A DNA stretch of 6,131 bases from assembly GCA_903930515.1 (NCBI GenBank), contig CAIYYW010000014.1, positions 1-6,131 on the forward strand, in the 5' to 3' direction. The position numbers were made by a program, and so were the translations under genes. This document shows positions 6,061-6,131 of the stretch, piece by piece. The stretch is from an uncultured delta proteobacterium (lineage in GTDB: Bacteria; RBG-13-61-14; DRUE01). The notes beneath the pieces were generated by a model. The model saw only the letters and a list, made by a program, of their open reading frames with translations, was not told where the DNA came from and searched no databases. Position 1 is the stretch's first letter. The number at the start of each line of letters is the position of its first letter.

Positions 6061-6091
6061 AAAAAAAAACCTTCTCTTCGCGAGAAGGTTT
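6061..6091 (-). terminator. Intrinsic terminator / attenuator in the pyr leader
   Basis: Read on the minus strand, a stem of AAACCTTCTC (6091-6082) and GAGAAGGTTT (6076-6067) closes on the five-base loop GCGAA and runs into nine consecutive T residues (6069-6061), the first three of which pair in the stem. This is a textbook Rho-independent terminator acting on leftward transcription. Its T-run ends 18 bases before the pyrR ATG, and that space is filled by the pyrR ribosome binding site, so no promoter fits between them. Transcripts entering the operon must therefore read through it, which makes an attenuator role much more likely than simple termination of an upstream gene. No obvious antiterminator partner for its 5' arm is visible in the 40 bases upstream inside the window. 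Confidence 0.88.
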
Positions 6092-6096
6092 CCGGT

Positions 6097-6117
6097 TTAT
6101 AAATTTAGTCCTTTCAT
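6097..6117 (-). CDS. Candidate six-codon leader peptide (MKGLNL) of the pyr operon
   Basis: A very short reading frame, ATG to TAA, encodes MKGLNL. It is preceded by GAAAGGGAG (6131-6123) and an A-rich spacer ACAAA, very similar to the carB translation start region (GAAAGGG then AAAAA). Its stop codon lies five bases before the terminator stem, so a ribosome terminating there would cover the stem's 5' arm and prevent the hairpin. That geometry fits attenuation through leader translation, as proposed for the Thermus pyr operon, where PyrR would act by blocking the ribosome. The alternative is that these codons are the tail of an upstream gene: the frame is open for the few bases left in the window, which cannot decide the matter. 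Confidence 0.45.
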   Translation of the reverse strand: MKGLNL

Positions 6118-6131
6118 TTTGTCTCCCTTTC

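Follow-up and report, generated by a model that had tools for sequence, protein, structure and literature searches.

How does a pyrimidine operon that begins with pyrR regulate its own transcription when its leader offers little more than a six-codon reading frame followed at once by an intrinsic terminator? Descriptions of PyrR control mostly take Bacillus as their model, in which folding of the RNA by itself decides between termination and read-through. The DNA analyzed here, hereafter called the window, is a stretch of 6,131 nucleotides that constitutes one whole contig of a 401-contig genome and ends, at position 6131, only 14 nt upstream of the ATG of this small frame (mini-ORF). Our analysis indicates that the leader is probably a PyrR-controlled, translation-dependent transcription attenuator, a reading founded on the comparison of sequences and of their predicted folds.

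The minus strand of the window carries, in this order, pyrR, pyrB, pyrC, carA, the gene of a 206-aa protein, that of a radical SAM protein and the start of carB. The pyrR gene (5485..6042, minus strand, as are the following) encodes a PyrR regulator/uracil phosphoribosyltransferase of 185 aa (NF003549 equivalog, 233.6 bits, with the cut-off at 138), the best PDB match of which is the pyr mRNA-binding attenuation protein 1ufr, which we take to be the PyrR of Thermus thermophilus. Arg19 and His22 are in place in the window protein, in favour of its acting as PyrR on the leader; a point on the other side is that its position 18 is Val, the B. subtilis PyrR having Thr there. Then come pyrB for aspartate carbamoyltransferase (4553..5488; NF002032, 399.9 bits), pyrC for dihydroorotase (3289..4569; TIGR00857, 410.8 bits) and carA for the small subunit of carbamoyl-phosphate synthase (2137..3285; TIGR01368, 491.8 bits). 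The two genes between carA and carB (582-2140, minus strand) are odd passengers for a pyr operon: the 206-aa protein has no match in Pfam or NCBIfam, and the radical SAM protein matches PF04055 and, weakly, NrdG2-like proteins.

Ahead of these genes, and again on the minus strand, the window starts within the 3' end of a PyrR binding loop, hereafter abbreviated as BL (GAAAGG, 6126..6131), the rest of which lies on another contig of the genome (G000:C329). The Shine-Dalgarno (SD) sequence of the mini-ORF, AAAGGGAG, is located at 6123..6130 (anti-SD duplex of -8.4 kcal/mol) and precedes the frame ATG AAA GGA CTA AAT TTA TAA (6097..6117, with ATG at 6117-6115 and TAA at 6099-6097), which encodes MKGLNL. 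Five bases, ACCGG, separate the TAA from the terminator stem, the arm of which then reads AAACC. The terminator, AAACCTTCTC-GCGAA-GAGAAGGTTT plus T-run, occupies 6061..6091 (hairpin 6091-6067, T9 6069-6061) and folds at -15.7 kcal/mol; beyond it lies the SD of pyrR, AAAGGAAGG (6048..6056; anti-SD duplex -7.5), with the pyrR ATG at 6042-6040, only 18 nt from the T-run. This succession of ribosome binding site, ATG, five further codons, TAA, five bases, terminator, T-run and pyrR ribosome binding site is that of the original prediction, and it is confirmed on the minus strand together with the claim that no promoter follows the terminator, since a consensus scan found no promoter-like site between the terminator and pyrR. 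(The same scan omitted the window terminator and listed the homologous one of a same-genus relative, L003; the window terminator is clear in folds.) The 102-nt part of the leader inside the window has a folding z of -2.2 with respect to shuffles.

The upstream part of the leader was found by searching the genome with a BL pattern, which gave exactly one match, at the end of contig C329. This contig end, GAAAGGGAGACAAAAT, coincides with the 16 nt with which the window minus strand begins (G000:C329 bases 1-16 against window 6116-6131, an overlap of exactly 16 nt), and the assembly therefore broke inside the pyr leader; a contig-end pattern of 22 nt had matched only the window because it exceeds this overlap. 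A coincidental match of such length is very unlikely given about 800 contig ends, and the joined layout is that of L003, in which promoter, BL, mini-ORF, terminator and pyrR follow each other on one contig. We thus infer from the 16-nt overlap that C329 and the window are contiguous across two contig ends of this MAG. On the same basis, bases 1 to about 80 of C329 (minus strand) would supply the rest of the BL, CCTTTAAATTGGTCCAGTGAGATCA, and a promoter of the form TTGACA-17-TAGCTT, the minus-strand end of the contig reading TTGACA-ACTATTGGGAAAAATGC-TAGCTT-CCTTCCAG-CCTTTAAATTGGTCCAGTGAGATCAGAAAGGGAGACAAAAT. This upstream promoter has a weak -10 box, TAGCTT, and escaped the consensus scan.

Counted from the expected start site through the T-run, the joined leader measures ~98 nt, and its fold, at -23.8 kcal/mol, consists of a BL hairpin and a terminator hairpin that are compatible with each other. 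In this fold AAGGG pairs with CCTTT below a CNGNGA loop, and the AAAGG of the mini-ORF SD is itself the 3' arm of the lower stem of the BL; the closed BL would therefore hide the ribosome site. This overlap provides the PyrR-dependent step that had been left open by the original prediction, which saw no BL in the window and suspected that one might lie to the right of position 6131, where it is indeed found on C329, although the antiterminator envisaged for the same place is not. Among 31 BLs of the survey presented below, compensatory changes affect four of the six pairs of the upper stem, and covariation exceeds that of shuffles (43 cells vs 11.4; covariation of 0.467 vs 0.207). The PyrR protein of the window's organism would be expected to bind this loop. 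A scan of the window at the Rfam gathering score gave no match to RF00515, since the contig ends within the BL, whereas the leaders of its relatives are matched end to end with 42-67 bits, the same-genus leader, at 42.2, falling short of the gathering score of 54.

The relatives of the window lineage retain the BL, the SD, the start codon and the reach of the frame to the terminator, while their peptides are unrelated. The same-genus counterpart, L003, reads ATG AGA CAT AGG AAT AAT GCT TAG (MRHRNNA), with the stem starting at the stop codon; the same-order counterpart, L042, has BL, AAGGG and ATG followed by 25 codons that run through the terminator. Such conservation of layout without conservation of the peptide argues for translation itself as the function, and the ribosome-based scheme put forward for this operon thus gains support from the comparison, together with the absence of Bacillus-type antiterminator pairing documented below. 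Another identity of the mini-frame was considered and rejected. The upstream sequence settles that the frame does not form the end of a longer gene, given the in-frame TGA lying 75 nt upstream in the joined sequence and the in-frame TAG lying 57 nt upstream in the same-genus relative. Nor does the frame resemble the leader peptides of amino-acid attenuators of the trp/his type, for which runs of regulatory codons and a conserved peptide are expected, the peptide not being conserved even within the genus (MKGLNL vs MRHRNNA).

The possible action of the ribosome was judged from the hairpin left outside its footprint. With UAA in the A site and the downstream edge at +15, the hairpin weakens from -15.7 to -4.7 kcal/mol, whereas with the edge at +12 it keeps -11.6 kcal/mol, and stem blocking in the window therefore depends on the exact footprint of the ribosome; in the same-genus leader no hairpin is left even with the edge at +12. 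An initiating ribosome alone leaves the window hairpin intact, and the ribosome must therefore reach the stop codon in this lineage. From such models we infer that translation of the mini-ORF would influence termination in the window leader. The sequence of events is then probably as follows. Transcription would start just after the TTGACA/TAGCTT promoter, so that the BL is the first RNA structure to form. At high UMP, PyrR-UMP would keep the BL closed and the SD hidden, the six-codon frame would remain untranslated and the hairpin situated 5 nt past the stop codon would end transcription before pyrR. At low UMP, a ribosome would translate the frame and at UAA cover the basal part of the 5' arm of the terminator, thereby allowing RNA polymerase to pass into pyrR-pyrB-pyrC-carA.

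The alternative that survives best is an attenuator of the Bacillus type, in which the BL acts as anti-antiterminator, an RNA antiterminator formed with the 5' arm of the terminator takes the decision and the mini-frame is incidental. The BL that this mechanism requires is present, and for the window alone RNAfold yields a competing structure without BL (-10.6 kcal/mol), in which GUGAGA, from the loop, pairs with UCUCGC, from the terminator, and which is about equal to the BL structure (-10.0). The same-genus leader does not retain this alternative fold; there, loss of the BL costs 9.2 kcal/mol. Moreover, the defining interaction between the BL 3' arm and the terminator 5' arm, which in leaders of the Bacillus type has a mean of -17.0 kcal/mol (-14 to -19 in the sample), amounts to -6.6 kcal/mol in the window and to a mean of -8.9 in the mini-ORF leaders, where it does not surpass the -9.1 obtained with arms taken from other species (permutation P = 0.74). 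Judged by these duplex energies, Bacillus-type antiterminator pairing is absent in the window and in the whole mini-ORF class, and the conserved start and openness of the mini-frame also speak against its being incidental. We consider this explanation improbable, even if the modelled folds leave some slight room for a weak RNA-only switch in the window.

A less probable view still, which we think has little chance of being correct, is that the BL serves only as a translational repressor hairpin, the terminator being constitutive or otherwise governed and the mini-frame a by-product. Some BLs in our sample do stand directly before gene starts (pyrR in L048, pyrB in L119), as in the mycobacterial layout. 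In the window, however, the SD within the BL serves the six-codon frame and pyrR has an SD of its own past the terminator, while constitutive termination with no promoter behind it would leave the operon weakly expressed. Least credible of all is attenuation of the pyrBI kind, whereby low UTP slows RNA polymerase and the leader ribosome catches up and disrupts the terminator with no PyrR-RNA step, for even if the leader frame ends at the terminator before a pyr operon and the class would work in the same way at the terminator, the SD shares bases with a covarying PyrR binding loop, the operon begins with pyrR and the sequence before the stem contains no long U-rich pause tract.

The distribution of the layout expected for PyrR-controlled, translation-dependent attenuation was surveyed in a first set of 386 genomes from about 260 families, plus named loci, which provided 73 leaders with a paired BL. 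An ATG lies 4-11 nt after the BL in 35 of them, vs about 3.4 per 4-nt bin further on. Among the 49 short leaders, defined by a terminator stem starting within 60 nt (a limit set after looking at this first set), 40 show a start codon between +2 and +13 whose frame is open to the stem, as compared with a mean of 17.7 and a maximum of 27 in 1000 dinucleotide shuffles. With about one leader per family the count is 28/37 (shuffles: mean 13.2, maximum 20 in 1000), a family-level figure that is approximate because the named loci are of unassigned family. A second set of 77 genomes of one phylum, examined with unchanged criteria, showed start and open frame in all its 27 leaders (shuffle mean 11.7, maximum 20), which are mutually related and do not count as independent events. 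The position of the start codon and the open frame thus recur far above shuffled expectation. In 56 of 67 leaders, AAGG and the start are 7-10 nt apart; the search pattern required AAGG, so that the SD core is partly ascertained and the start codon is not. Stop codons fall beyond the hairpin (36 leaders), in its loop or 3' arm (18), in its 5' arm (12) or before the stem (one, the window), and the window mini-frame is also the shortest among those surveyed, as befits the extremely short leader frame that the original prediction had described. Frames 0, +1 and +2 are open in 21, 13 and 19 cases, respectively, a weak comparison given that the leaders are short, and seven leaders combine a close terminator with no such frame.

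For the pyr operon of Thermus ZO5, Van de Casteele and colleagues are said to have proposed in 1997 that a ribosome on a leader frame extending up to or into the terminator blocks it and that PyrR prevents this; the leader reportedly has no antiterminator, and pyrR reportedly comes first in the operon. The window is alike in these respects, with a frame that is led by an SD and reaches the terminator, a PyrR site over this SD, no antiterminator and pyrR as first gene, even if its host is an uncultured lineage unrelated to Thermus. Our survey recovered a leader of the same layout from the Thermaceae (L043, whose PyrR shares about 91% identity, judged by eye, with 1ufr of T. thermophilus), which shares with the window the BL, the SD overlap and an ATG at +7 but differs in the length of the frame, 28 codons running through the stem as against six codons with a stop before it. 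The common scheme and this recovery argue that the window leader would be a member of the kind proposed for Thermus, with an extreme frame. Bacillus leaders have in common with the window the BL with CNGNGA hexaloop and CCUUU/AAAGG lower stem, a terminator before the pyr genes and PyrR itself. They differ from the window in that its leader, of ~98 nt including the T-run, lacks complementarity for an antiterminator exclusive with BL and terminator, in place of which it would use the translated mini-frame.

In Mycobacterium smegmatis, PyrR acts by translational repression (Fields and Switzer 2007, as cited in PMC13328217): as proposed for the window, an SD is concealed by the BL and PyrR keeps ribosomes from loading. 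The hidden start is there that of the operon's gene, whereas in the window it belongs to the mini-ORF, with transcription termination as the output. A genomic survey of 2013 treated PyrR sites as one Rfam family and, in the passages concerned, made no distinction between mini-ORF and Bacillus leaders (PMC3766115), and a review of 2026 attributes control by PyrR to Gram-positive bacteria (PMC13328217). No account of a wide mini-ORF class was found in the open papers searched, a set without the most relevant journals, and the literature searched, which did not reach the key papers, gave no sign of a test or generalization of the 1997 proposal, made from one Thermus sequence. What is new here is the BL arm doubling as SD and the apparent breadth of the mini-ORF class, which seems to span many unrelated bacterial families.

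With the same layout apparently present in dozens of families, and with the PyrR site being also the ribosome site, these leaders form a clear and testable class, of which the window would be the smallest version, needing only six codons. The layout also links attenuation to translational repression by a simple route. It is for us an evenly balanced question whether PyrR attenuation outside the Bacilli most often takes the form of BL, SD, mini-ORF and terminator, across many unrelated families, with the invariant AAGG of the BL retained there for its role as ribosome binding site, so that start hiding would perhaps be the older PyrR mechanism and the Bacillus antiterminator a later development.

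Other features of the surveyed loci deserve mention. In the leaders of one phylum (L158-L186), the 5' arm of the terminator is nearly always the anti-SD-like ACCTCC/CCTCC and the 3' arm is often GGAGG(T), the arms being more uniform than a terminator requires. BLs situated immediately ahead of the pyrR or pyrB start, with no terminator, are found in L048 (1464-1500), L119, L046 (2070-2100) and L122 (802-840), a layout that fits translational repression and occurs beside the attenuator layout in the same survey. Upstream of a gene resembling, by eye, an HD-domain (5'-deoxynucleotidase-like) protein, L152 has a BL at 150-200 (plus strand), and a weak PRTase match lies further downstream of that gene. 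BL-like hairpins with AAAGG 8-9 nt before an ATG occur in L142 (150-200, plus strand) and L144 (minus strand, near 880-930). The proteins behind them look related, that of L144 having no Pfam match and that of L142 being class II tRNA synthetase-like (PF00152); the hairpins are possibly a PyrR-like translational site outside the pyr genes, or else due to chance.
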